From Clavaria fumosa (taxonomy: Eukaryota > Basidiomycota > Agaricomycetes > Agaricales > Clavariaceae), in the NCBI GenBank assembly GCA_951802425.1, contig OX637801.1, positions 1,240,001 to 1,304,000 on the forward strand: a stretch of 64,000 nt of DNA. Reading direction: 5' to 3'. Shown here piece by piece: positions 5,115 to 54,003 of the stretch; positions within the stretch are counted from its first letter, which is position 1, and each line of letters opens with the position of its first letter. The notes under the pieces were generated by a model, which saw nothing but the letters and a program-made list of their open reading frames with translations, made no database searches and was not told the DNA's origin. Made by a program: the position numbers and the translations under genes.

Positions 5115-5222
5115 TGATGAGAGTGGGATTCGAACCCACGCCCCGGAGGACCAGATTACTGTTGCTCACCAAGTGAGCTGGTCTCCTTAGTCTGGCGCCT
5201 TAGACCGCTCGGCCATCTCACC
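5115..5222 (-). tRNA. tRNA-Leu (anticodon AAG) with intron
   Basis: Read on the minus strand, the gene starts GGTGAGATGGCCGAGCGG, the typical class II Leu 5' half, and ends with T-arm GGGTTCGAATCCC and acceptor TCTCATC plus discriminator A. The acceptor pairs with GGTGAGA (one G-T wobble). The anticodon stem CCAGA/TCTGG closes a loop with AAG at 34-36, and an intron of roughly 25-28 nt follows position 37. A variable arm CCTCCGGGGCG is present, as expected for Leu. Confidence 0.92.
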
Positions 5223-15007: not shown

Positions 15008-15764
15008 TGAAGGTGATTTGTTCAGCGCTGCGAGCGAGTAATGGTGCTGTTCTACGCTCTACTCGCGTCAGCTCGAGAGCAATATAAGAGTCATCGCGAA
15101 GAGAAGAGGATCATCCATCGCAATGGACGCCATGCGGCCATTAGCAACCGAACGCAACTGCTAGCGTAGACGACGCCAATGCCGCCTCGATGTTTGTTGT
15201 AAAGAAACGGACCTTGTAAAGAAGAGGAGACGGACGAGGCCAACGGCGATGAGCGAAGCACAAGCGTTTGACGGTAGTGGCAGTGCAATTCAGCCCAGCT
15301 GCGATGACTCTCCATTCACGACCCTTCCTTGCTTCAGAATCTCAGTCAGGTGTGTGGTGACCGCAAAATATACACCGGATACTGCGAGGATAAACAGAAA
15401 ATCTAATCAGAATCACACTGGACGACTCAGTCTTAATTTCTTTGTTTAATATTTCTCCGACGATGATTAGGATTACGGGTTAGAAAAAGAAAAATGCAAA
15501 AGAAAGACAGAAAGTAGTCAATCTCAGAATGAGCTGAGGGTTGAAAAATTGGCAATGCGGCATTATAGCTGGTCACCCTACACGGAACTTCCTAGTAAAA
15601 GGCGAGGAAGTTATCGTGGTTGCAGGATGACCTGCCGCCATCAAGCAATAGCACACGCCACAGTTGGCTTATTGCACTTTTGAATTTAGTTCAGCCCACG
15701 GGTGGTTGGTCACCTGACCACTCAAATAGTGCATCATCGTCTGCAAGGCCATAGAACACAACTA
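15008..15764. other. Intergenic: rps3 promoter and coq6 3' flank
   Basis: No gene seen. The first 250 bp or so upstream of the rps3 ATG must contain its promoter and 5' UTR; no TATA box or known element was assigned. The remainder is AT-richer unassigned DNA. Confidence 0.5.
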
Positions 15765-38493: not shown

Positions 38494-38784
38494 TATCAGA
38501 CTGGGTCTCACACAACTTAAGCATAAGGTCATGACGACAATACTAAGATAAGGGGAAAAGAGTACAAAAAAGGAAAAGTGAAAGTACTTATAGCAAATGC
38601 TTTGGCACTTGCTGACTTTCCCACGCTCGGACCCTCAGATCACGTAATGCGCCCAGGCTCCAGGTCATGTGATCTTACATGATTACATAATCCGACCCAG
38701 CCACAGGTCATGTGACCTTCCAACAACCCTCCCCAGTTTCTCCACAACTGCACTTTGGGATGGCTTACATAAGTGATCCTAACA
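38494..38784 (-). repeat. Element B 3' LTR
   Basis: 291 bp, near-identical to 53713-54003. It contains aatactaagat (38539-38549), the reverse complement of the primer-binding site, and a TATAAG box about 40 bp upstream in the element's sense. Confidence 0.9.
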
Positions 38785-41229
38785 TCACCCCCCTCTTAAG
38801 GCTGGGCGTCCCGACCAGCTAGCTTGGCCTTGTCGGGGTGAGCAAGGAAGAAGTCCCGGAGAAGCAGTGCCACATTGGTGAGGTTCCGTCATGGCTCCCA
38901 AGTGTTCTCCTCTACAGGGTATCCCAACCACTTCACCAGGTATCTCACTCCACGCCCCACCTTCTTCACGTCAAGGATCGCCTCCACATCATACTCCAGG
39001 TGGTCATCATCAATCGTAGGGGGCGGAGGGGGAGGCAGGTTCTGAGAAGGGAAGGAAGGGGGGTGGTATGGTGTCAACAGCAACTCATTGAAGACCCGAT
39101 GGATGCGCCAGGCCCGAGGGAGCTTGAGGCAATACCCAGCAGGTCCCACCTTCTCCTCAACTGCAAAGGGGCCTGCTCTCTTGTTGTCAAGCTTTTTACA
39201 GGGCCGGTCCATCTTCAAGTTTCTAGTATCCAGCCAGACCAGATCTCCCTCAGAGTACTCCTGACTTGGGCATTTCCCCTTATTGTAGCTCTTCTTCATT
39301 GCTGCCACCGCTTTCTCCATTGCCTCCTTGGCTGCTCTTCGGGACTCCATGAGCTTAGCCATCCACTCATCTGCTGCCGGGTTCACCTCAGAAGGTGGCC
39401 GGAGCCCCCCATTCCATGGGTGTCATCCATAATCAAGGAAGAAAGGTGTCTGTCCTGTCACTGAGTGCTCACGATTATTAAGAGCAAACTCCGCAGTGGA
39501 CAACCATTCAGCCCAGTCATCCTGGAGATGGTCCACGTAAGCCTGGAGATAGATCTCCATCTCCTGGTTCGCCCATTCCGTCTGTCCATCAGTCTGCGGA
39601 TGAAAGGCAGTACTTGGATTTGCCTTTACCCGGATCATGGAGTAGAACTCCTTCATGAAGCGGGACATGAACTGGGACCCCCGGTCACTCACAACCTTGT
39701 GAGGGACTCCATGGTCACGAAACACTCGATCCCGGAGGAGACGCACCGCTCCAAGTCCTGTGAGGTCGAGCCCGATCGCTTCGAGCAGTGTCCATTTCGT
39801 GAATTTGTCAACAATAACAAGGATGGCATTATGTCCACGGGAGAGGGGGAGGGGACCGACTATGTCCCATGAGATCACCGACCAGGGACCATCGGGCACC
39901 AGATGGGGGTGCAGTGGGGCAGCACGCTTGGTACGGTTGGGCTTTGTCCGCTGGCATGTCTCACACCCCTGGGCATACCGATCCGCATCTTTTACCATGT
40001 CCGGCCACCAATAACCCTTCACTAGTGCTGCTCTCAACTTCCGGGGCCCAGGGTGTCCAGCAGCGGGGAGGTCATGCTCAAACTCGAGAACGGCCTCACG
40101 AGCTCCTAGGGGGACCCAAGTGACTATCCCCTTTCGCCAGAGTCCAGCACGATCTCATGTCCACTCATCATCAAGCTCCTCTGGCTTCTGTATGTGTACC
40201 GCGCTATTTTTCTGGAGTAGCATCTCCATTTCCGATGTGAATGACACACGGACTTCCGTTTCTGGGAAAACCTGCACCAGTGCATCCTCCTCCACCATCT
40301 CTCCATAGTCCGGTCTCCGGGAGAGTGCATCTGCCTTTGTATTCGACTTGCCAGTGCAATACTTTATCTCAAAGTCAAAGCACTGGAGCTCTCCAACCCA
40401 ACGAACCTGCCTCGGCTTCAACTTCTGGGGCTTCCGGAAGTACTGGAGGTTTGCATGGTCCATCCAGATCTCGATCGTCTCCTCTGCTCCAATGAGGTAT
40501 GCTCGCCACTCACGAAGTGCCCGAATCACAGCCAAGAACTCCTTGTCGTACACATCGTAGTTCTTCTCAGCTGCAGTGAGGGCCTTGGAGATATAGTCAA
40601 CAACTCTCCAGGTTCCATCCGTCTGCTGCTGCGAGAGCACTCCACCAGTTGCCAGGTTGCTTGCATCTGTCTCTACCTTCCATCTCCCTTTGTCCTGAGG
40701 CAGAGCCAAGACTGGGGCTGATACGAGTGCCTGGCGGAGATCTCGGAAGGCTGCTTCCTCCTCCTCCTCCCATTTCCATGGAACATTCCCAGTCAGCCGG
40801 AAGAGTGGCTTTGCCTGGGCAGAAAGATTCAGGATGTGCCGGCGGAGGTAGTTCAGCATCCCATTGAACCTCTGGACATCCTTCACATTCTTAGGACGTG
40901 GCCAATCTCGGACTGCCGCACCCTTGGCCAGATCATGCTCTAGTCTGTTGTGGGAGATCTTCATCCCCAGGAAGATGATCTCACTCTTCTCAAACTTGCA
41001 TTTACTGAGTTTGAGACACAACCCATTCTCTCCAAACTTCCTCAAGACCCGATCCATCCAGTACCGGTGTGTAGCCAAGTCCTCTGCAAACACAATGACA
41101 TCATCCACATAGGCCCTCACATGTCCTCCTGCAATCTCCTCCCTCAACACATGATTCATGAAGCGTTGGAAGGTAGCAGGGGCATTCTGCAGTCCAAACC
41201 ACATGACAGCTGGTTCGAAGAGTCCACGG
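38785..41229 (-). pseudogene. Element B pol, downstream part: RT end, RNase H, integrase, chromodomain (stops)
   Basis: From the element C junction the minus strand resumes within RT at GLFEPAVMWFGLQNAPATFQ, followed by YVDDVIVFAEDL (catalytic YVDD), the thumb/connection and RNase H (KVETDASNLATGGVLSQQQ, YDKEFLAVIRALREW). Then come the integrase (CETCQRTKP, ISWDIVGPLP, VVSDRGSQF, FHPQTDGQTEWANQE) and a chromodomain (YDVEAILDVK, YLVKWLGYP). In-frame TGA codons at 40155-40157, 39423-39425 and 38889-38891 interrupt it; sister copy A has Arg, Gln and Arg there. Confidence 0.9.
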
Positions 41230-42147
41230 TGTAAGGACCATATGCGATCTAAACACGGAAACATGACAGATACCGACTATCCGGATGTTTTGCGATCCAA
41301 AGAAATTACGTGCGATACGAACCGATAACGATCCGACACCGTCCGATAACGACCGATAGTATCCGATACATGTCCGATGTCGGACACTTCGGTCTTCAAT
41401 CCCCCGTGACGATCACAGCCCACCGCTCTCACACACCGCCCACGCCTCTCTATTTCACCTCTCCAGCACGGTCAGCGCTCGACATACACACTATTCCATT
41501 CCCATTCCTTTATTTCATATACCATGCTGTAAATTTCATATTATGATCCCTTTCAACCATTCAATCGTTTAAACGTTTCAAACCCTTTGCAGTACCTTGT
41601 CCATTGTTCTTAGTACCCCTTTGCTGTACCAGCCCCACTTTCCTTCAGTTTATGAGCGGTCCGGACATTTGCTAGTTATCGGACATTTCATTCCTCCGAG
41701 CTACTCATTTCCCTTGTGATATAACTCCTTCATGTAACCCTTCACGCGACATGGCGCTGTTCCATGTGTTTTCCGGACATTTCCGTACATTCCAATTTGC
41801 TGTACTTACAGAACTGTACTTAAGTACACTCCGGACCTCTCTGAAATACAGCTTTCTGAACCCCTTCTCTCTGTTAGAAACCTCACCTAAGCTCACCCGT
41901 CGTCGCAACCTTCGATCCGCTGGCCTCCGTCGTTGCCGGCCCTTCGTCTTATCGCACCATCCTTATCGGATTTTATCGGACACATAGCAGAATATCCCGG
42001 ACACCGTATATTTCTATTTCTCACATATTTTGAATTCATACTCCACATCCTCAAGGGTGTTTGGTGAATCTCTAACGCCTTACAGGAACCCCTGAAGGAC
42101 TTGACTGTAATCAAGCAGTTGCAGCAAGAACCGTAATACCCACTACA
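41230..42147 (+). repeat. Element C 5' LTR with phased CCGAYR array
   Basis: 918 bp. Six hexamers CCGAYR start at 41322, 41333, 41343, 41353, 41363 and 41374, i.e. every 10-11 bp, followed at once by a CGGACA. Further TCCGGA/TCGGAC motifs recur through the LTR. A regulatory role is inference. Confidence 0.93.
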
Positions 42148-42536
42148 ATTCTGGAGCCCACCGCGAGGGGTTCAACAAGACGTCTTCACTACCACCCTCA
42201 AGGATTCCCAGAGGCTCATCCGCTCCTCAGCCTCGACGCTCCGAACGCCTGAGAAGTCGAAACCCGAATCCGATCACAGAACCACCGCCCTCCGAACCCC
42301 CCGGAGAAGTAATTGAAACTTCCCACCTTCTTCCATCGGACATTCCCAGTATCTCATCCATTGTCTACTCCCACACGAGTTTCACCACTCCGGATCCCTC
42401 ACTACCACAGACCTTCGAACAACCACACTCACCGCTTACACCACTTCCCCTTGAACCAGACATCCTTCATTTCCCGCCCGAAACACCTCAGAATTCACCA
42501 GACGAAGTTCACTCACTGCCCCACGCACCAATACAA

Positions 42537-44534
42537 ATGGCCAACCAACCGAGATATCCGCTCCGTGGCGCCCACGGGGCCCCTGCCTTTGACGGAGTAC
42601 CGACACACCTCAACCGGTACTTCGAGGACATCGACATCGTGCTCACCGGCGTCAACCCGGACGTTCCAGAACCCGATTTAATTCGGTACGCCAAGCACTA
42701 TCTCGACACCGATACGTGTCTCCTCTGGGAGACTCTTTCACCTGACCCGGACCCGGTATGGACGTGGGATACCTTCAAAGCGGCCGTCCGACGACTTTAT
42801 CCAGGATCTGATGGAGGTCGCTTATTTTCCGTCGCCGACCTGGACCGTTTCATATCGGACTCGGCCCAAAAGGGAGTTTACACGCGCGCAGAACACGGAG
42901 AATACTATCGGGACTTTCTCCGGATCACCTCGCACTTGATCACATCACAGCGTATGTCCACAAATGACAGGAACCGACTTTACATCCTCGGATTTGGGGA
43001 TCATACAAGGCGTCGGATCGAAAGCCGACTCGCTATCATACTACCAAACCACCATCCGGAGGATCCTTACCCCATGAATGAAGTACATGGTGCAGCTGAA
43101 TTTCTTCTCTCCTCGACGTCCCCCCACTCTGCGACAACCGATCAACTTTCCGGACCCGTCCGTCTCGCATCTTCAGCCCCCGGGAGAGAAACGAAACCGG
43201 TAGTCAAGAAGGAAGAATTTGATATGTCCGCAGCCTGGGCAACATTCGCTTCCACAATGGCTCGCCTGGAATCGATTTTGACAGCCCAATCTCTCGAACC
43301 GGCAAGACACTCCGCTCCCCGGACAACGAACTCTCCCGCAGGCCGGACGTGTAATTTCTGTTCGGAAATAGGTCATTTTGTTAGTGCCTGTCCGAAGGCC
43401 CTCGAATACATTAAGTCCGGCAAATGTATACGGAACACAGAAGGCAGGATTTGTCTCCCCTCCGGACGATATTTGCCAGGCACTATCTCAGGGAACAACC
43501 TATCCGAGCGCTTCGACAAGTACTACGCTACATACCAATCCCAGAACACGCAACCGGCGACAACCGCGGTATTTGAAGCACAGCCGATCGGACAATCCGC
43601 TCACCCCCGGGACATGGAAGACGATTCGGATGAGGAAGATGACGAGAATACCGTGTTGGAAAACATGGTCCGCACCTTTGCAAACGATGTCGCGAAGAAA
43701 GTAGACAAGGGCAAAAGGAAAGCACCCACACCCAGGAATACCGATCCTCAGCCATCTAGGTTACCGCCCCCACCCGCCGTTGTTATTACGCCGCCTCAGG
43801 TCACTCGTCCATCAAAGCCGGAGAAAATCGAACGACCCGACGTCCAGTACCATTACCAAGCTCCGATCGAAAATCCGGTAACCGTTCAACAAGTATTCGA
43901 TCGCGCACTCGACATGCCAGTCCGCGTCACACCTCGCGAACTACTCGCCATTTCCGGAGACATCCGCAAAAAGATGAAGGATGTGGTTACCGCTCGTCGC
44001 GTTCCGGTCACCGCGTCCGTCGTACAGGATACGCTCTATACAAACATTACGGTCCCGGACACCTCCGATCTTGTTGTCGCCGTCGACGCTGCTCCGCTCC
44101 GCATCGTAGAAGGGATATTGGACAACCGGATCGCCGCAGAGTGCCTGCTCGACCAAGGCAGCTCAATCGTGGCAATGGGAAGAGACGTTTGGGAGAAACT
44201 CGGCAACCCACTACACTCCGAGAACGTTATTCACATGGAATCCTCTCATGGCACCATCGCTCCGACCCTCGGACTCATCAAGAATTTCCCCCTACAGATC
44301 GGTCCGTGCACATTCCATGTTCAAATGCAAGTAGCAGACACGTTGCCCTGCGAGGTTCTTGTCGGACGACCGTTTTTCATGTTAACCGGTTCCCAAACGA
44401 TTGACCATCCCCACGGGGCCCAGGACCTTATTCTCAACGATCCAAACACCGGAGAAAGAATCATAGTGCCAACGAAGGAGCGAATCCCGATCCGCAAATC
44501 CTTGAAGAACAAGAAACCGCATCCGGATTTTTGA
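42537..44534 (+). CDS. Element C Gag-protease polyprotein
   Basis: 665 residues from ATG 42537. The N-terminal part (HLNRYFEDIDIVL, TFKAAVRRLYPG, YYRDFLRITSHLI) has the helical look of gypsy Gag capsid. A CCHC zinc knuckle follows (C-x2-C-x4-H-x4-C in CNFCSEIGHFVSAC). The C-terminal aspartic-protease-like domain has AECLLDQGSSIVAMG, where D-Q-G-S replaces the usual D-[ST]-G-[AS], and a later LPCEVLVGRPFF that matches the retropepsin flap/second-half pattern. The stop TGA (44532-44534) overlaps the beginning of pol by 4 bases in the -1 frame. The 5' UTR from the LTR is about 390 nt. Confidence 0.9.
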   Translation: MANQPRYPLRGAHGAPAFDGVPTHLNRYFEDIDIVLTGVNPDVPEPDLIRYAKHYLDTDTCLLWETLSPDPDPVWTWDTFKAAVRRLYPGSDGGRLFSVADLDRFISDSAQKGVYTRAEHGEYYRDFLRITSHLITSQRMSTNDRNRLYILGFGDHTRRRIESRLAIILPNHHPEDPYPMNEVHGAAEFLLSSTSPHSATTDQLSGPVRLASSAPGRETKPVVKKEEFDMSAAWATFASTMARLESILTAQSLEPARHSAPRTTNSPAGRTCNFCSEIGHFVSACPKALEYIKSGKCIRNTEGRICLPSGRYLPGTISGNNLSERFDKYYATYQSQNTQPATTAVFEAQPIGQSAHPRDMEDDSDEEDDENTVLENMVRTFANDVAKKVDKGKRKAPTPRNTDPQPSRLPPPPAVVITPPQVTRPSKPEKIERPDVQYHYQAPIENPVTVQQVFDRALDMPVRVTPRELLAISGDIRKKMKDVVTARRVPVTASVVQDTLYTNITVPDTSDLVVAVDAAPLRIVEGILDNRIAAECLLDQGSSIVAMGRDVWEKLGNPLHSENVIHMESSHGTIAPTLGLIKNFPLQIGPCTFHVQMQVADTLPCEVLVGRPFFMLTGSQTIDHPHGAQDLILNDPNTGERIIVPTKERIPIRKSLKNKKPHPDF

Positions 44535-47500
44535 GAGCTGGAGCCTCGAATGTCCGCAAACCAATGGACTTACCTCCGATCAATGCGGACACGGAAGCTA
44601 TACCCAGATACGAGACTCCAGCCATTTTTCCTACTTCCGTTCACGTTCCCTTATCGTTTTCCCTTATAAACCCAGTCTCTCTCGACCCCTTCCCCTGTAT
44701 CAGTATCTCGGACGTTTCTCTCGATTCCGCTGATTCCCCAGTCGCTATCGGAAGTGAACCGTCGCGTCCAAATGTTGCAACCCCCTTGTACAACAAAACC
44801 CCCGAAATAAATTCCCTGTCTACGGACGCCGTTCTTCCAGTTTACTTGGGAAAGAAATATAAGAAAGTCGCGAATCGCGTCAATCCGATCAAAGCGACAG
44901 TACCCAAAGAATTCCGGATTGTCCGACGCCGACACCCGGACCCCCTAGCCGATATGCCAACTCTTCCGACCCATCCCCCCGATTTCACCCCCGGTCTTCG
45001 ATACACTCAAAACCGGAAAGACACGCACAACGCCAACCCCACCGGATTCTTATGGCCGGAGGAAGAAAAACTCGTTCACCATCTTATTAAAGCCCAGGAA
45101 GACGCCTTCGCTTGGAAAGAGACCGAAAAAGGACGATTCGACGCAAAATACTTCGATCCGATTATTATCCCGACAGTCGAACATATCCCTTGGATCTTCA
45201 AAAATATACCGATTCCCCCCGGTATTTACGACGAAGTTCTCAAAGTAATCCGGGAAAAGATCGCAGCCGGCGTTTATGAAGAATCCAACTCTTCTTATCG
45301 GTCCCAGTGGTTTTGCGTGTTAAAGAAAGACGGAAAGTCTCTCCGACTCGTGCACAACCTCCAGCCGCTTAACAAAATCACTATCGGCGATTCCGCGGTC
45401 CCCCCGATAATGGAGGTTTTTGCGGAATCATTCGCCGGACGCGGATGTTACGGATCACTCGACCTTTTCGTCTCCTTCGATCAGCGGTCTCTGGACGAAC
45501 GAAGCCGAGACCTCACCACGTTTCAAACCCCTCTCGGAGCAAAACGGCTCACCTGCGTCCCCATGGGATACACCAACGCGACGCAGATTATGCATGGAGA
45601 CGTCACGCATGTTCTACAAGATGAAATTCCGCACGTAACCATCCCATTCGTAGACGATGTAGCGATCAAGGGCCCGGAAACCCGATACGAGCTTCCGGAC
45701 GGCACCTACGAGACGATCCCTGAGAATCCGCAAATACGACGATTTGTTTGGGAGCATTTAAATAACGTCAACCGGGTGCTCCAACGAATCAAGAAAGTCG
45801 GAGGAACCTTTAACGGCAAGAAAACGACAATTTGCGTTCCCGAAGCAGTCGTTACCGGACATACGTGCACATACGAAGGACGAGTTCCGGATGCCTCCAA
45901 CGTTCAGCGTATCCGGGACTGGCCTCCTTGCAAAACCCTGACCGATGTCCGATCATTTTTAGGGGTTTGCGGACTACTCCGGATATTCATTAAAAACTAC
46001 GCCGTACTTGCCCGACCTCTTGTCAGTCTAACTCGCAAGGACGTGCCATTCAGATTCGAAAAAGAAGAACAAAACTCGATGGACCGACTCAAACACGCGA
46101 TTCTGAACTCATCCGCCATCCGACCAATCGACTACCGCTACGGACAACCCGTAATCCTCGCCGTCGACTCATCAAATATCGCCGTTGGTTTCGCACTCTT
46201 CCAAATTGGAGAAGATGGAATACGATATCCCTCCCGCTTTGGCTCCATTACCTGGAACGAACGCGAGGCCCGATACTCACAAGCAAAAATCGAATTATAC
46301 GGACTCTTCCGTGCACTTCGGTCGTACCGGATTTACCTTATAGGCCTTCCGAAATTTACTGTCGAAATGGACGCGAAGTTCATTAAGGGTATGCTAAACA
46401 ATCCGGACATTCAACCCAACGCTGCCATGAATCGATGGATTGCCGGTATACTACTCTTCGATTTCGATCTTGTTCATATTCCCGCAGATAAGCACACCGG
46501 AGCCGACGGACTATCACGCCGACGTGCCGCAGATGGTGAAGAAGATACCGAGTCTGAAGATCACGAAGAATGGATCGATCGGAGCTACGTATTCGCCATG
46601 GAACACATGAATCGAGCACCGGACGCTTCCTACACATCCGAGACACGACTCGCCGGCATCACCCATACTCGCTTCAAAGTTTACACAGGATCGACGCTAC
46701 TCAATTCGACGGTACCACCCGAGGAATCACCGACCCCGAACGAATCTTCCGCCGTCCTTATACCCCGATCCGATGCAGCAAACAAAAGAGAAGAACAGAT
46801 TCGCAAAATTGAATCTTTCCTTCGAAACCCGATCCGTCCCTCCGGCATTGACGCAAACCAGTTCCGACGACTGGTCCGCTCCGCATCCGAGTTCTTCATC
46901 CTAGATGACAAATTATGGCGTCGCCGACCTAACGGATACCACCAAGTAGTACCTCCGGACCACAAACGTCTCGCAATTATCACAGAGGCACACGATTCAC
47001 TCGGCCACAAAGGCGTTTACGTTATCCGGACACGTATTCTAAATCGGTTCTGGTGGCCGGTGCTGGATCAAGACGTAAAATGGTTTGTCAAAACTTGTCA
47101 CCAATGCCAAACTCGGCAAATCCGGAAGATCTTCATTCCACCGACGGTCGCTACACCGGCCGGTCTTTTCCGTCGAGCGCACATTGATACTATGTTCCTA
47201 CCAAGAGCCCGCGGTTTCCGACTTCTCGTCCACGCCCGATGCTCGTTATCCGCATATCCGGAAGCAAGACCGCTACGAAACGAGACCGCCCGACTTCTCG
47301 GAACCTTCATATTCGAAGATATACTATGCCGATGGGGAGCAGTAGAAGAGATTATCACGGATAACGGAGCCCCATTTATCAAAGCCCTCGATTTCCTTAA
47401 GAAACGGTACGGAATCCATCACATCCGTATATCCGGATACAACTCCCGCGCTAACGGCGTCATCGAACGTGCCCATCGATCGGTCCGTGAGTCGTTAATC

Positions 47501-48268
47501 AAAGCAGCAGATGGAGACGAATCGAAATGGCCGGACGTTTTACCCTCAGTCATTTGGGCAGAACGAACCACGATCCAACGGTCCACCGGCCACTCCCCAT
47601 TTTACATCGCACATGGCGTCGAACCGCTTTTCCCCTTCGACATATCCGAAGCAACATATTTAATTCCGACCGCCGACGCCCCGATGACCACTCCGGAACT
47701 GATAGCCCTTCGTGCCCGCCAACTGCAAAAACGAGAAGAAGATCTAGCAACAATCGCCGATAAAGTGCTCGCTGCCCGCAAACAATCCGTCAAGCAGTTC
47801 ATCGACGCACACCGGAAGTCTATTATCGACTACGACTTCCAACCCGGATCGTTGGTATTGATCCGCAATTCGGCCGTTGAAATGGAATTAAATCGAAAAA
47901 CAAAACCGCGATTCTTCGGACCGATGATCGTCGTTCGCCGAACACAATATGGCGCCTATATTCTCTCGGAACTCGACGGCGCCGTTTCCAAAATCCACTA
48001 CGCAGCTTTCCGCATCATTCCCTACTATCCGAGGTCGCAAACATCGATTCCGGTCACTTCTATCATCGACCAAACGACGGAGATAAACGAGGACATCTCT
48101 CCCTATCAAATACACGAGGCGTCACCCAACTCTATCGACAGAGAAGATGAGCAAAACCAAGCGGCTGACCTATCCGATGAATCCGATAATGAAACCACCG
48201 ACGACGACACTGCAGAAACTCGTCCGCAACGCTCCGGAGCAACCCGGAACCTTTGGCCTCGCCATTAA
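44531..48268 (+). CDS. Element C Pol: reverse transcriptase, RNase H, integrase
   Basis: 1,245-codon frame in -1 relation to gag, open from TTG at 44531 (not an ATG, so frameshifting is likely). The RT palm contains FCVLKKDGKSLRLVHNLQPLN, GSLDLFVSFDQ, TPLGAKRLTCVPMG and the catalytic box FVDD (usually YVDD). RNase H follows (VILAVDSSNIAVGFALFQ, YSQAKIELYGL, HIPADKHTGADGLSRR). The integrase zinc finger HHCC is seen in HDSLGHKG...CHQCQTR, and the core residues in HIDTMF, IITDNGAPF and NGVIERAHRS. A long acidic tail (DESDNETTDDDTAE) ends the protein. It is distinct from A and B, with no chromodomain. Confidence 0.92.
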   Translation: MRAGASNVRKPMDLPPINADTEAIPRYETPAIFPTSVHVPLSFSLINPVSLDPFPCISISDVSLDSADSPVAIGSEPSRPNVATPLYNKTPEINSLSTDAVLPVYLGKKYKKVANRVNPIKATVPKEFRIVRRRHPDPLADMPTLPTHPPDFTPGLRYTQNRKDTHNANPTGFLWPEEEKLVHHLIKAQEDAFAWKETEKGRFDAKYFDPIIIPTVEHIPWIFKNIPIPPGIYDEVLKVIREKIAAGVYEESNSSYRSQWFCVLKKDGKSLRLVHNLQPLNKITIGDSAVPPIMEVFAESFAGRGCYGSLDLFVSFDQRSLDERSRDLTTFQTPLGAKRLTCVPMGYTNATQIMHGDVTHVLQDEIPHVTIPFVDDVAIKGPETRYELPDGTYETIPENPQIRRFVWEHLNNVNRVLQRIKKVGGTFNGKKTTICVPEAVVTGHTCTYEGRVPDASNVQRIRDWPPCKTLTDVRSFLGVCGLLRIFIKNYAVLARPLVSLTRKDVPFRFEKEEQNSMDRLKHAILNSSAIRPIDYRYGQPVILAVDSSNIAVGFALFQIGEDGIRYPSRFGSITWNEREARYSQAKIELYGLFRALRSYRIYLIGLPKFTVEMDAKFIKGMLNNPDIQPNAAMNRWIAGILLFDFDLVHIPADKHTGADGLSRRRAADGEEDTESEDHEEWIDRSYVFAMEHMNRAPDASYTSETRLAGITHTRFKVYTGSTLLNSTVPPEESPTPNESSAVLIPRSDAANKREEQIRKIESFLRNPIRPSGIDANQFRRLVRSASEFFILDDKLWRRRPNGYHQVVPPDHKRLAIITEAHDSLGHKGVYVIRTRILNRFWWPVLDQDVKWFVKTCHQCQTRQIRKIFIPPTVATPAGLFRRAHIDTMFLPRARGFRLLVHARCSLSAYPEARPLRNETARLLGTFIFEDILCRWGAVEEIITDNGAPFIKALDFLKKRYGIHHIRISGYNSRANGVIERAHRSVRESLIKAADGDESKWPDVLPSVIWAERTTIQRSTGHSPFYIAHGVEPLFPFDISEATYLIPTADAPMTTPELIALRARQLQKREEDLATIADKVLAARKQSVKQFIDAHRKSIIDYDFQPGSLVLIRNSAVEMELNRKTKPRFFGPMIVVRRTQYGAYILSELDGAVSKIHYAAFRIIPYYPRSQTSIPVTSIIDQTTEINEDISPYQIHEASPNSIDREDEQNQAADLSDESDNETTDDDTAETRPQRSGATRNLWPRH

Positions 48269-48507: not shown

Positions 48508-50044
48508 TTACTTAGAGGACGACTCGCCAAGGAGGAGCATCCGGAGCAGCTCCGCTCCGGCCTTCACCTGGTCCGCCCCCCTCTCCATCATCTCCAGCGC
48601 CCTATCGAGCGCCTCCCTCCCGGACACCCCTCGCGCCACCTCCCGCTCCTTACCCTTCCGACTTGGTCCCGCCTCCGCCTTCTTCTTCTTTGCCGGCGGC
48701 TCCTCCACCAGCTCCACACTGGTATCCTCCTCAATCTCGTCCTCCTCCTCCGGCGTCGTCTCCTCGCGAACCGGTACCCGCGTCGCACCTCGCCTCGGCC
48801 TCTTACTTCCGCTCGCTCCCGCCGCCTTCGGACCTGTTCCGATACGTTAGCAAATGCGGACCCGATACCTTCTCGACATACCTTCCGTTCCGGACACCGC
48901 CGCTCTCTCTGTTTTCGCTCCTGAAACACACCTATCATTTGTCTCATCATGAAAAATAAAAAGAATACCACTTACCTCGCACAGCCGACAGACTGCACGA
49001 TACCTTATACGTCCGGCACCACCGGCACGCTATCCCCTCCACTCCGTAGCACGCCCGCCACTTCCGGGTGCACTCCTTGCACCCCGGAACGTGCTCCTAA
49101 TCATTATATCAGACGTCGAAAAAGCCTCACATATCTTAATTAACCACTCACCTTATCTCCAGGCTGCCGCGCAGCCCGGGACTCTATGTCGCTCTTCGCC
49201 CCGCCTCTCCTCCCTCGCCCTCGCTCCGCTGCCTTCCGCCTCGCGATCTCCACCCACACCGGAGTCGCCATCATCCGCGCACCGTCCCGGTGCACGAACA
49301 TCGGCTCCTCCACCGACTGCTCGCCTCCCCCGGCCACCGCACTCACCGCCGCCGCCTCGATAACACTGACGGGCGTCACCCCGTCGGTTCCCCACACGGT
49401 CCGATGACCGTCCGGATCCTCCCCTGCCGCCACCTCGTCCACACGCAGCTCTCCGGCGTCCGGTGATATCGTCGTCGTTGTTACCGCCGCTGCACCGGAC
49501 TCCGCCGCTCCCGTCGTCGTCGTTGTTGCCGCCGCCGCCGCCTCGCCCTCGTCGTCGCTGTCACTTACGACAATTAAGCGCGCCCGGGCAAGGCGCGCCC
49601 TCTTCTCGGCAGCCCGCCTCTCCTCCGCCTCCGCCTCTGCTGCGGCCCGCTCAGTAGCCGCCCTCTCCTCGCTCGTGCGCTGTTTCTCGGCCTCGACCTC
49701 CTCCCGCCTTCTCGTCCGCTCAGCGGACCACTCGTCCCCGCGGAGCTTCCGCCACTTCTTGAGCCTTCGCGCGACCCGGACGAGTCCCTCGTCCACCTCC
49801 ACGTCGTCGTCGATCGCTGCCACATATCCGGCAAGAAAATCGTCCTAAAAACGTTGTCAGTGCGATACAAAAAAAGCACGAAAGATTCTCGTTCACGCAC
49901 CGCGTCACCCGCATACGTCCCCACCCACTCCGCGCACTCTCCATCCTGCCCCCGATCCGGCAACTCCTCGCCCGGCGCCATGGCCTGCGCCTCGGTCATC
50001 GCCTGGACTGCGTTTCGAAAGATTGAAGAATCGAAGTTTTCCAT
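48508..50044 (-). CDS. Element C antisense accessory protein with Zn2Cys6-like motif
   Basis: Minus-strand gene within element C, opposite to gag-pol. Five exons close the frame: 50044-49901, 49844-49152, 49096-48976, 48920-48882 and 48833-48508, 1,323 nt or 440 residues, all GT-AG. Exon 2 encodes a long Arg/Glu/Ala helix (VARRLKKWRKLRGDEW, then EER/AAE repeats), probably coiled coil, then a Thr/Ala-rich stretch. Exon 3 holds all six cysteines of C-x2-C-x6-C-x7-C-x2-C-x6-C, the Zn(II)2Cys6 spacing. Exon 5 is acidic, then Lys-rich (PPAKKKKAEAGPSRKGKE, possible nuclear signal), and ends in an amphipathic helix. I know of no named family. DNA binding is inference, as is expression; composition is GC-rich, so the frame alone is weak evidence, but five exons closing is not. 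Confidence 0.7.
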
Positions 50045-50201
50045 TGTCGGAGAGTTGACGTGTTGCTGTCGCTGGAGAAAACACAAGGGTGTGTTTGGAC
50101 CTATGTGCACCCACACGACGCGTACTTCACGATCAACAAACCGTTATTTGGCCTTGTTTGGTTGCAACCGAGGGCGGTTGCATTTTCAGCCCCCGGGAGA
50201 A

Positions 50202-51119
50202 TGTAAGGACCATATGCGATCTAAACACGGAAACATGACAGATACCGACTATCCGGATGTTTTGCGATCCAAAGAAATTACGTGCGATACGAACCGATAA
50301 CGATCCGACACCGTCCGATAACGACCGATAGTATCCGATACATGTCCGATGTCGGACACTTCGGTCTTCAATCCCCCGTGACGATCACAGCCCACCGCTC
50401 TCACACACCGCCCACGCCTCTCTATTTCACCTCTCCAGCACGGTCAGCGCTCGACATACACACTATTCCATTCCCATTCCTTTATTTCATATACCATGCT
50501 GTAAATTTCATATTATGATCCCTTTCAACCATTCAATCGTTTAAACGTTTCAAACCCTTTGCAGTACCTTGTCCATTGTTCTTAGTACCCCTTTGCTGTA
50601 CCAGCCCCACTTTCCTTCAGTTTATGAGCGGTCCGGACATTTGCTAGTTATCGGACATTTCATTCCTCCGAGCTACTCATTTCCCTTGTGATATAACTCC
50701 TTCATGTAACCCTTCACGCGACATGGCGCTGTTCCATGTGTTTTCCGGACATTTCCGTACATTCCAATTTGCTGTACTTACAGAACTGTACTTAAGTACA
50801 CTCCGGACCTCTCTGAAATACAGCTTTCTGAACCCCTTCTCTCTGTTAGAAACCTCACCTAAGCTCACCCGTCGTCGCAACCTTCGATCCGCTGGCCTCC
50901 GTCGTTGCCGGCCCTTCGTCTTATCGCACCATCCTTATCGGATTTTATCGGACACATAGCAGAATATCCCGGACACCGTATATTTCTATTTCTCACATAT
51001 TTTGAATTCATACTCCACATCCTCAAGGGTGTTTGGTGAATCTCTAACGCCTTACAGGAACCCCTGAAGGACTTGACTGTAATCAAGCAGTTGCAGCAAG
51101 AACCGTAATACCCACTACA
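50202..51119 (+). repeat. Element C 3' LTR
   Basis: 918 bp, identical to 41230-42147 wherever compared, which implies very recent insertion. The phased CCGAYR array is at 50294, 50305, 50315, 50325, 50335 and 50346. Confidence 0.95.
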
Positions 51120-53141
51120 ACGGGGTGTCAGGAAGGCGCAGCGGTGCTGGTGCTTGGGCCAGACCTGCATAGATGGGAAACCTCCCTTTGCATCAATCTT
51201 AGAGTAGATCGACGCTCCTTTAAGCACATCCACTGTGTCTCGGATGCGGGGGAGGGGGTACTTGTCCTTGATCAGGTGTGCATTCAGCCTCGAGTAGTTG
51301 ATGATTGGCCACAGTTTGTCCTTCTCATGTTTGAAGAAGAAGGGGCTGGCATACGGGGATTTTGAGGGCCGGATTCGTCCAGAAGCAAGCTGCTCATCCA
51401 CCCAACAGTTCATCTCCACCATCTCCTGCCGTGTCAAAGAATACAGCTTGGAGGAGAGGTGCTCAGGGTCCTTTTTGAACTCGATCTTAATATCGAAGTC
51501 TGGTTGGGAGCGGGGAAGTTCATCCCACTTTGCTTCACTAAACACCAAAGGGTAGCGGCTGGGCCAATCGGGGGTAGGGCCAGAGTTGGGAAAACGGGTG
51601 TCCAGAATACTTGTGGATGCAAGGGTACTCATTTTCAGGGGTGCAGAGGCTCGAGGGGATGGGGAACACTGTGGGGGGCAGCAGGTAAGGCTCAGCTCTG
51701 CCTTCTGCCAGTCAATATCCGGGTTATGCCGCTTGAGCCAGTCATGCCCAAGGATGACCTTGTGGGACTGGGTCTTTCCCAGCAGAAAGTGGATCCGCTC
51801 CTGGTGGTCACCAACTCTCACCAGCACCTCTATCCCATACCGGACCTTTCCATTCCTGTTCTGTGTCCCATCCACATTATACATGGTGATTGGGTTCAGC
51901 AGGAGAGATGGCTCCAGTCCCACTCCTTTTGCCCACTCCAAATCCATGAAGCAGTTGGTGCACCCTGAGTCGACAAGGGCCTTCATTGTGGTCCCTTTGC
52001 CAGTGCTGAAAGCCTCCAAGTGCACCTGGATGGCTAGCTCTCGTGGCACATGTTTCCGCACTTCTGGCCGCACTCTGGTTAGGTGCTCTGCCAGTCTCAC
52101 TTCCTCCTTCACCTCAGCCCCAATTCGGGTATGTCTCTGCTGCAAGATAGTATATCGGGGTATACTTGCAGCAGGCACAGGGATGGAAAGGGGGCTGGCA
52201 CACTTCTTCTCCCCAGTGGGAGTCCTCCTCTCTCTCTCACACAGCTCTATGCAGGCTCGGAGCCATGCAATCTCTTTCTCATATCCCTCCGCCATTTGGG
52301 GGGCACATGGTGCTGCCCGGGTTTGGGCCCTTGGGACCTGCAGACGCGTATCAGGCAGGGGGCAGAAATGGACAGCATGGCCAGTCTGGTGGCATCGGAA
52401 ACAACATCTCTCATCAGCAGGGGCCCATCCTCGGGCCATGGCCACATCTGGAGTACACAGCAGAGGGGTCACAAGAGGTCGCGAAACGGTCACGGCAGGT
52501 CGCGGTAGGGTTGTGGTGGGTCGCACGGGGGTCACAGTGGGTCGCGGTGTCCGTTCCGTGAGTATCCCATCCAGTCGCCTTTGCTGGGCATCAAGCCTCT
52601 CAGCCAGCACCCTCCATTCTCCATATGTCTCTGGCATCGGGGAGACACCATAGATTCTCTCCACCAACCTCCTACTCAGGTTCAACTCCAGCCAATGGAC
52701 TAGGATTCCTGAGTCCTTCTCTGCACTCAACTTCGCCCGTTGGAACAGCGTCTCGAATTTTGTGAAGAACTCTGGTGCTGTCATGGCACCCTGTTTCAGC
52801 CCTGCAACATCGGCAAGGGCAGTCGCATGGTCATTCGGGTCATCGAATGCGTGCTTCATCTCCTCCACAAACTCTGCCCAGGTTCTGGCCTCGCCACTAC
52901 CCAGGATCTCTTCCGCCTTCATATTCGCCCACTCCGCAGCAAATCCTTCTCCAGTAATTTTGCTCAGAGCAAGAAGGACCTTCACCAGGTCCACAGCATA
53001 GACAGTCGGGTTCGCCATAAACAGGAGGCGAAGGGATCGGAGGAATGTACGGAAGTTCCTTTTCTGCCCATCAAAGGGGGCAACAGATAGGTCAAGCCTC
53101 ATAGGTTGGGCTACAGGCGGGGTGACATGGTCTGCCATCAC
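51120..53141 (-). pseudogene. Element B gag-protease-RT (5' part, cut by element C)
   Basis: One open frame from ATG near 53138 to the element C junction. Gag begins MADHVTPPVAQPMRLDL, with capsid-like helices (FRTFLRSLRLLFMANP, EGFAAEWANM, FFTKFETLFQRA), then a CCHC knuckle (CFRCHQTGHAVHFC). The protease has LVDSGCTNCFMD (D-S-G) and VILGHDWL. The RT begins with KLYSLTRQEMVEMNCWVDEQLASGRIRPSKSPYASP and IYSKIDAKGGF, and stops at AFLTP, where element C entered. The reading frame carries no stop of its own, but the protein is truncated by the insertion and its 3' half has stops. Confidence 0.9.
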
Positions 53142-53712: not shown

Positions 53713-54003
53713 TATCAGACTGGGTCTCACACAACTTAAGCATAAGGTCATGACGACAATACTAAGATAAGGGGGAAAGAGTACAAAAAAGGAAAAGCGA
53801 AAGTACTTATAGCGAATGCTTCGGCACTTGCCGACTTTCCCACGCTCGGACCCTCGGATCACGTGATGCGCCCAGGCTCCAGGTCATGTGATCTTACATG
53901 ATTACATAATCCGACCCAGCCACAGGTCATGTGACCTTCCAACAACCCTCCCCAGTTTCTCCACAACTGCACTTTGGGATGGCTTACATAAGTGATCCTA
54001 ACA
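53713..54003 (-). repeat. Element B 5' LTR
   Basis: 291 bp, matching 38494-38784 in length and nearly in sequence. aatactaagat at 53758-53768 is the complement of the adjacent primer site. Confidence 0.9.

Follow-up and report, generated by a model that had tools for sequence, protein, structure and literature searches.

A retrotransposon of the fungus Clavaria fumosa, here called element C, carries on the strand opposite to gag and pol a gene that is almost certainly real and under selection, and a regularly phased TCGG array lies in its LTRs. The pairing of such an array with an antisense gene occurs in two lineages and is new here. The antisense protein is predicted to be Zn2Cys6-like and probably acts on the LTRs of its own element. 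Element C lies in the window, that is, the whole stretch of 64,000 nucleotides that was analysed (G000:C8:1240001-1304000); the genome searched comprised 48.76 Mb in 17 contigs.

Element C and the structure of its antisense gene

Element C has the features of a Ty3/gypsy retrotransposon, namely an LTR pair with TG...CA ends, a target site duplication (TSD), gag, and pol with the order RT-RH-IN (Table 1), and its class rests on these features and the domain order. The RNase H and integrase zinc-binding domains of pol scored above the Pfam cut-off, and RT was slightly under it (27.9 bits against 29.6). The protease motif in the frame at 42111-44534 is DQGSS; that of retroelements is usually DTG or DSG. 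A comparison of pol with viral contigs and an Rfam scan of element C gave no match. Elsewhere in the window, Rfam identified a U5 spliceosomal RNA (15521-15639, minus strand) and a tRNA gene (5115-5222, minus strand). Further, a 291-bp direct repeat (38494-38784 and 53713-54003, 98% identical) flanks element C and its surroundings, and the pair looks like an older short-LTR element into which element C jumped.

The minus strand holds a gene (50044-48508) in the interval from the pol end (48268, plus strand) to the 3' LTR start (50202); its five exons form 440 codons followed by TAA. Its four introns (56, 55, 55 and 48 nt) are all GT-AG, and the exon-intron structure is predicted from conserved splice sites. 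An earlier note on this DNA had placed a spliced gene at this antisense position, and its coordinates, strand, exons and 440-codon frame were reproduced. Across all six frames, the window has a single stop-free instance of the six-Cys motif of this gene, and such a motif was found in 1 of 60 dinucleotide-shuffled windows.

Table 1. Features of element C and its antisense gene (positions in the window), with the genomic positions of ten further matches to the zinc exon
Feature	Position	Strand	Remark
TSD, left	41226..41229	.	ACGG, 4 bp
5' LTR	41230..42147	+	918 bp, TG...CA, identical in sequence to the 3' LTR
Phased CCGA/TCGG array, 5' LTR	41322..41377	.	upstream of gag; six units spaced 11-10-10-10-11 bp
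gag-protease frame, stop to stop	42111..44534	+	matches to CCHC knuckle and aspartyl protease, each under the Pfam cut-off
pol frame, stop to stop	44405..48268	+	RT, RNase H, integrase; frame differs from that of gag and overlaps the gag end
Antisense exon 5	48508..48833	-	SKRPRR and AKKKK patches, acidic stretch, conserved C-terminal segment
Intron 4	48834..48881	-	48 nt, branch-like CTAAC
Antisense exon 4	48882..48920	-	
Intron 3	48921..48975	-	55 nt
Antisense exon 3	48976..49096	-	six-Cys zinc-cluster-like segment
Intron 2	49097..49151	-	55 nt
Antisense exon 2	49152..49844	-	long charged helix, then low-complexity linker
Intron 1	49845..49900	-	56 nt, branch-like CTGAC
Antisense exon 1	49901..50044	-	contains ATG
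Presumed 5' leader of antisense transcript	50045..50201	-	similar among the relatives compared
3' LTR	50202..51119	+	918 bp; on the minus strand upstream of the antisense gene; presumed promoter
Phased TCGG array, 3' LTR	50294..50349	-	253-305 bp upstream of the antisense ATG
TSD, right	51120..51123	.	ACGG, 4 bp
Ten equal-score zinc-exon matches	C1:186728, C4:137839, C4:4408518, C5:135860, C7:42704, C10:3296159, C11:2608881, C12:153677, C13:1879792, C14:51024		

Conservation of the gene in copies and relatives

A DNA search of the genome, in which 40 of 160 candidates were scored, returned at least 42 matching pieces, which represent the window and 39 further near-identical loci. All eight splice dinucleotides were kept in each of these 39 loci, and a frame of 440 or 445 codons was kept in 31, the gene being broken or shortened in the other eight. 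One of these 31 loci, L018, has lost the six-Cys pattern. With the protein as query, 172 matches were obtained, and at least 54 diverged loci were tallied among the matches listed. Forty of these were examined and 39 aligned as DNA; L063, in which the gene has an insert of more than 1 kb, was excluded from the alignment, and the decayed L077 from the counts of codon positions and Cys.

Every splice dinucleotide was kept in 37 of the 39 diverged relatives, the exceptions being L074, without the last acceptor in the alignment, and L077. The letters around donors and acceptors differed mostly within forms compatible with splicing, for example GTGAGT and GTAAGT. Exons 1 (144 nt) and 4 (39 nt) had the same lengths in all 39 relatives and exon 3 (121 nt) in 38; exon 2 varied from 699 to 765 nt and was a multiple of three in 31, with other lengths in eight. 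The introns were also near-constant in length (commonest values 51, 54, 54 and 48 nt), so that introns and exons are not separable by length alone; substitution does separate them.

The six Cys were kept in 38 diverged relatives, and thus in 39 of 39 rows including the window, an outcome that had been named beforehand as a test of the gene. K291, Y296, V298, E299, G300, W305, Y309, K310 and V311 of the zinc exon were likewise invariant in the 39 rows. The frame ran without a stop before codon 424 in 14 of the 39 diverged relatives and was broken earlier by stops or frameshifts in 25, and four had AAG at the start codon; broken frames and AAG starts are expected of old insertions. Random stops or indels in other copies had been put forward as evidence against the gene. 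They do occur (25 of 39 diverged and 8 of 39 near-identical loci), but they are absent from the young majority and their rate is below that expected without selection. Since a conserved antisense ORF lies between pol and the 3' LTR in most copies, the gene belongs to the aORF-3R class; the end of pol was found in all 12 relatives tested for it. In older copies (L048-L087), CG has decayed to TG or CA, turning Arg into Gln, Trp, Cys or stop, a pattern suggestive of methylated cytosine in CpG or of a RIP-like process.

Exon 2 was also matched by four predicted metagenome proteins (54-67% identity over 12-51% of the query). These read ...GDK-VSR or VSC across the donor, where three of them stop and P0003 continues for 12 residues; the exon border is therefore conserved there too.

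Selection on the antisense gene

Substitution at third codon positions was about two to three times that at first and second positions in exons 1, 2, 3 and 5; the rates in exon 2 were 0.316 (third) against 0.137 and 0.154 (first and second). The shortest exon, exon 4, was less clear (0.409 against 0.160 and 0.277). We calculated dN/dS between the window and 16 relatives picked, from 39, as intact or nearly so, and the antisense gene gave 0.22-0.31 in all 16. The end of pol gave 0.09-0.32 in each of the 12 of these relatives compared. Thus, the antisense protein is somewhat less constrained than pol, within the same range. The earlier note had asked for dN/dS across copies, and the values indicate purifying selection on the antisense gene.

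Intron 1 had a length divisible by three, mostly 51 or 54 nt, in 35 of 39 relatives. No in-frame stop was present in 26 of the 27 rows with 51 nt; all eight rows with 54 nt had in-frame stops. Intron 1 differed from the window at a rate of 0.389, the highest of the four introns (0.175-0.264 in the others), and its position effect was weak (0.19, 0.26 and 0.28, compared with 0.09, 0.12 and 0.25 for exon 1 in the same rows). Intron 1 was rejected as coding sequence because it changes fastest, shows a weak position effect and contains stops in every 54-nt row. It could still be retained in some relatives with the 51-nt form.

The zinc-cluster-like protein

The Zn2Cys6 cluster binds two zinc ions and CGG-type DNA, and its spacing consensus is CX2CX6CX5-12CX2CX6-8C. 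The antisense protein has the spacing CX2CX6CX7CX2CX6C (residues 285, 288, 295, 303, 306 and 313), which lies within this consensus. The basic residues noticed earlier between the second and third Cys are shared by the relatives, K291 by all 39 rows and R290, R292 and R293 by 30, 27 and 29 rows, respectively. When exon 3 of the window was searched alone, PF00172 (Zn_clus) was the best Pfam match (E 0.41; 11.2 bits against a cut-off of 21). Among 12 zinc-exon members, PF00172 was listed for 11 at E up to 10 (best E 0.001) and zinc_ribbon_6 matched six (best E 0.0028). PF00172 stayed below the cut-off wherever its score was shown, both for zinc-exon members and for the homologues of the second family described below, and the whole antisense protein gave no PF00172 match and no bZIP match in Pfam. 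The proposed fit to Zn(II)2Cys6 therefore stands for spacing and basic residues but not for full family membership, and because the Zn_clus cut-off was missed we call the protein Zn2Cys6-like and do not file it as a member. The host genome, searched in six frames, has 23 Zn_clus matches above the cut-off.

In an AlphaFold2 model of exon 2 with four relatives, the long charged helix described in the earlier note appeared as a single helix at about residues 67-141 (exon-2 residues 19-93). Block means were 73-93 pLDDT over exon residues 21-90 in a model that was poor overall (54). The helix precedes the zinc segment; in Zn2Cys6 proteins a long helix usually follows it. The six-Cys segment itself (exon 3, single sequence) was modelled poorly by AlphaFold2, with a mean pLDDT of 62. 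A PDB sequence search with the whole antisense protein gave no match, and the best match to the exon-3 profile was Zygote arrest protein 1 (E 0.26). The Lys-rich patch also proposed for the protein corresponds to the Lys/Arg-rich patches SKRPRR and AKKKK of exon 5. Basic patches resembling nuclear signals are kept among the relatives, and an acidic stretch lies at about residues 358-378.

The phased TCGG array in the LTRs

CGG triplets are a common half-site of Zn2Cys6 proteins. The densest TCGG/CCGA stretch of the window falls in the LTR, where six TCGG follow one another on one strand at a pitch of 10-11 bp, about one helical turn. Among 2000 dinucleotide shuffles of the LTR, a chain of three arose in two and a chain of four in none, and the longest TCGG chain in the window outside the LTR is two. 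In the sense direction, a TATA-like stretch near 41505-41521 follows the array at a distance of approximately 130-190 bp. A scan of the LTR for bacterial-type promoters, a model unsuited to a fungus, gave no match.

An array of three to nine units at the same pitch was present in 41 of 41 rows of relatives when products of CpG transition were allowed; a chain of three arose in 21 of 2050 mononucleotide shuffles. Strict TCGG chains among the relatives have one to six units. A form close to the array gave 84+77 matches in the genome, compared with 8+18 for the reversed control, and most of the 100 matches listed were sequence of the family of element C (family 1). Four TCGG at an exact 10-bp pitch were found 150 times (69+81), against seven (5+2) for the control. 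The 100 of these 150 that were listed comprised 65 in family 1, 32 in a second family (family 2) and three in neither list; two of these three bracket a family-2 gene (C6:854413-855538), one 573 bp upstream and one 7.4 kb away on the other side. The array belonged to one of two sequence types in all 39 rows with letters shown.

Distances to the array were taken from 37 of the 42 family-1 gene rows, partial rows being excluded. In all 37 full-length rows an array lay 150-400 bp upstream of the gene, and 35 had a second array beyond the opposite end of the gene, at a distance of 6-9.5 kb. At L089 (G000:C4:3241700-3244700), the pol of another element adjoins what looks like a stray LTR, whose TCGG array has decayed; the 3 kb of this locus held neither a six-Cys frame nor a sequence matching the antisense protein.

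The same pairing in a second lineage

Family 2 was discovered through its array: four odd array matches, all of one kind, led to L088, a locus of another lineage. The pol of L088 has a terminal chromodomain, and the integrase ends of L088 and element C share 23% identity. In L088, a frame with CxxCx6Cx10CxxCx6C runs antisense between pol and the end that bears the array; this copy has a TGA between the first two Cys and is also shifted in frame upstream. Its array has a chain of four TCGG, a length reached by 0 of 300 shuffles.

The family-2 peptide had 161 matches in the genome, some loci being in pieces and many without stops. Among proteins from other sources it had 12 matches in a first search and 33 with a profile. 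Five of these outside homologues were uninterrupted over 305-315 residues, that is, without introns. The six Cys were complete in seven of eight aligned family-2 proteins, and three of nine homologues scanned had no Zn_clus match at E up to 1. BLASTP aligned the family-1 and family-2 antisense proteins with the six Cys in register, the match being weak (21.6 bits, E 0.031 in one comparison); a common origin of the two proteins is possible from this alignment.

The family-2 array (TCGGAGTNNN x3) had 196+167 matches in the genome and its control 0+0. Distances were available for the 100 arrays listed of these 363 and were compared with 36 of 42 close gene rows (partial rows excluded) and 29 picked diverged rows. 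The array was upstream on the gene strand at 578-704 bp in at least 20 of the 36 close copies and at 917-1114 bp in at least 6 of the 29 diverged copies. The pairing of array and gene amounts to at most two independent cases, one per lineage, since copies within a family are not independent.

Ten matches to the zinc exon (Table 1) share the same score and 78% identity, several of them within 50 kb of a contig end. Each lies about 9.3 kb from a family-2 match, and these too are of nearly equal score. The ten pairs probably represent a duplicated segment that carries both antisense gene families and is perhaps subtelomeric.

Proposed function and alternatives

We consider it probable, judging from the sequence, that the antisense protein binds and regulates the LTRs of its own element, working in the manner of HBZ of HTLV-1. 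The 3' LTR would drive antisense transcription and the transcript would be spliced. Its translation would yield a zinc-cluster-like protein that binds zinc and DNA and enters the nucleus. There it may occupy one helix face of the phased CGG array in its own LTRs and thereby regulate both gag-pol transcription in the sense direction and the expression of its own gene, in the two directions of the LTR. One array could serve both directions because it is upstream of the sense TATA-like stretch and of the antisense ATG. Activation is slightly favoured over repression in view of the acidic stretch. The genomic RNA is the opposite strand, on which the introns would read CT...AC; they would therefore pass through retrotransposition intact, and this would account for the persistence of a spliced gene in an element copied through RNA. 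The earlier proposal that the element carries its own regulator gains from the phased array and from a second lineage with the same pairing; binding and the sign of control remain the presumed parts of it. More tentatively, two Gypsy lineages may each possess an antisense zinc-cluster regulator matched to their own CGG array (TATCGGATNN-type and TCGGAGTNNN-type), and closed circuits of the HBZ type may have arisen in, or been kept by, fungal retrotransposons in both.

The protein could instead be a nuclear accessory factor that acts after transcription, in binding of cDNA or LTR ends, nuclear entry or integration, the array being a docking site or unrelated. The conserved patches resembling nuclear signals would suit such a factor, as would the array on both sides of the gene in 35 of 37 copies, and the nuclear protein of Grande and TRP28 of Retand are antisense accessory proteins whose role is unknown according to the available text (PMC7264820, PMC11963269). 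We nevertheless regard this as unlikely, since the array is away from the LTR ends, at an internal position of the kind expected for an upstream activating site.

Less likely still, the antisense protein is under selection for some other role and the array is read by a Zn2Cys6 factor of the host. Host factors above the Pfam cut-off are available (23 matches), CGG is the half-site of the whole class and tandem repeats are common in LTRs. A host factor alone, however, would not predict that both array-bearing lineages found have antisense zinc-cluster-like genes.

Antisense RNA might be the main effector, through dsRNA or interference with sense transcription, with coding secondary. Transcripts antisense to LTR elements can themselves function as RNA (PMC7264820), and the decay of relatives by CpG transition suggests methylation. 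This is nonetheless very improbable, because a protein product is indicated by dN/dS values close to those of pol, by exon-2 indels in multiples of three and by six invariant Cys; noncoding antisense RNA as the sole role was rejected on the dN/dS values.

The low Pfam score alone would suit a frame open by chance whose splice sites are fortuitous, or the recent capture of a host gene by a single copy; these are practically eliminated, the former by the conservation of splice sites and Cys, dN/dS, the shuffles and the copies, and the latter by the presence of the gene in the window, 39 near-identical and at least 54 diverged loci.

Comparison with known systems

The antisense protein of element C shares with fungal Zn2Cys6 regulators (PF00172) the Cys spacing, the basic residues between Cys 2 and 3 and the best match, below threshold. 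It differs from them in that the cluster is in the second half of the protein, the helix comes before the cluster and the protein is encoded by a mobile element. In genome annotation, genes of this kind may be mistaken for host genes and entered as "Zn2Cys6-like" or hypothetical proteins.

The fungal antisense gene brtn was reportedly described originally by Zhao (2011). It is an additional antisense gene of Boty-like Gypsy elements in Botrytis cinerea and Sclerotinia (PMC7264820, PMC4227169, PMC8365987). Like the gene of element C, brtn runs antisense in a fungal LTR element and is located in the interval that separates pol from the 3' LTR; a zinc cluster, five exons and an LTR array, present in element C, are not mentioned for brtn in the available portions of these papers. 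The earlier statement that no fungal retrotransposon with such an arrangement had been described was therefore too strong (PMC7264820), and its mention of antisense ORFs in plant elements was correct: those of Grande, RIRE2, Retand and PvRetro13, as well as that of fungal Boty, are between pol and the 3' LTR (PMC7264820). No Zn2Cys6 antisense protein of an LTR retrotransposon was found in a search of mainly openly accessible literature, which leaves its absence unproven.

Maize Grande gene23 is antisense and encodes a nuclear protein (PMC7264820), and the antisense TRP28 protein of Retand has predicted DNA binding (PMC11963269). Both elements resemble element C in having a family-wide antisense ORF located between pol and the 3' LTR for which a regulatory role is proposed. 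They have other protein domains and plant hosts, and a six-Cys cluster is not reported for them in the text available. Reviews, in their available portions, call the function of antisense accessory genes of LTR elements unknown. In element C, the type of protein predicts a triplet that is present as a phased array in the same element, so that the idea of a regulator and its operator is directly testable.

HBZ of HTLV-1, with its relatives APH-2, APH-3 and APH-4, is the best understood antisense regulator in the available text of PMC10186651: it is transcribed antisense from the 3' LTR, has a spliced form, is nuclear and acts on expression from the 5' LTR. Element C is likened to it in antisense expression from the 3' LTR and a transcription-factor-like product, expression and splicing being predicted for element C. 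The likeness concerns the way of working, and no homology is claimed. HBZ belongs to the bZIP proteins and works through partners such as CREB-2 (PMC10186651), whereas the protein of element C is Zn2Cys6-like and would use a presumed site array of its own. If the proposed regulation of its own LTRs is correct, element C would represent an HBZ-like circuit of self-control in fungi, provide a natural source of zinc-cluster DNA binders whose candidate sites are already mapped and offer a simple reason for introns persisting in a retrotransposon.
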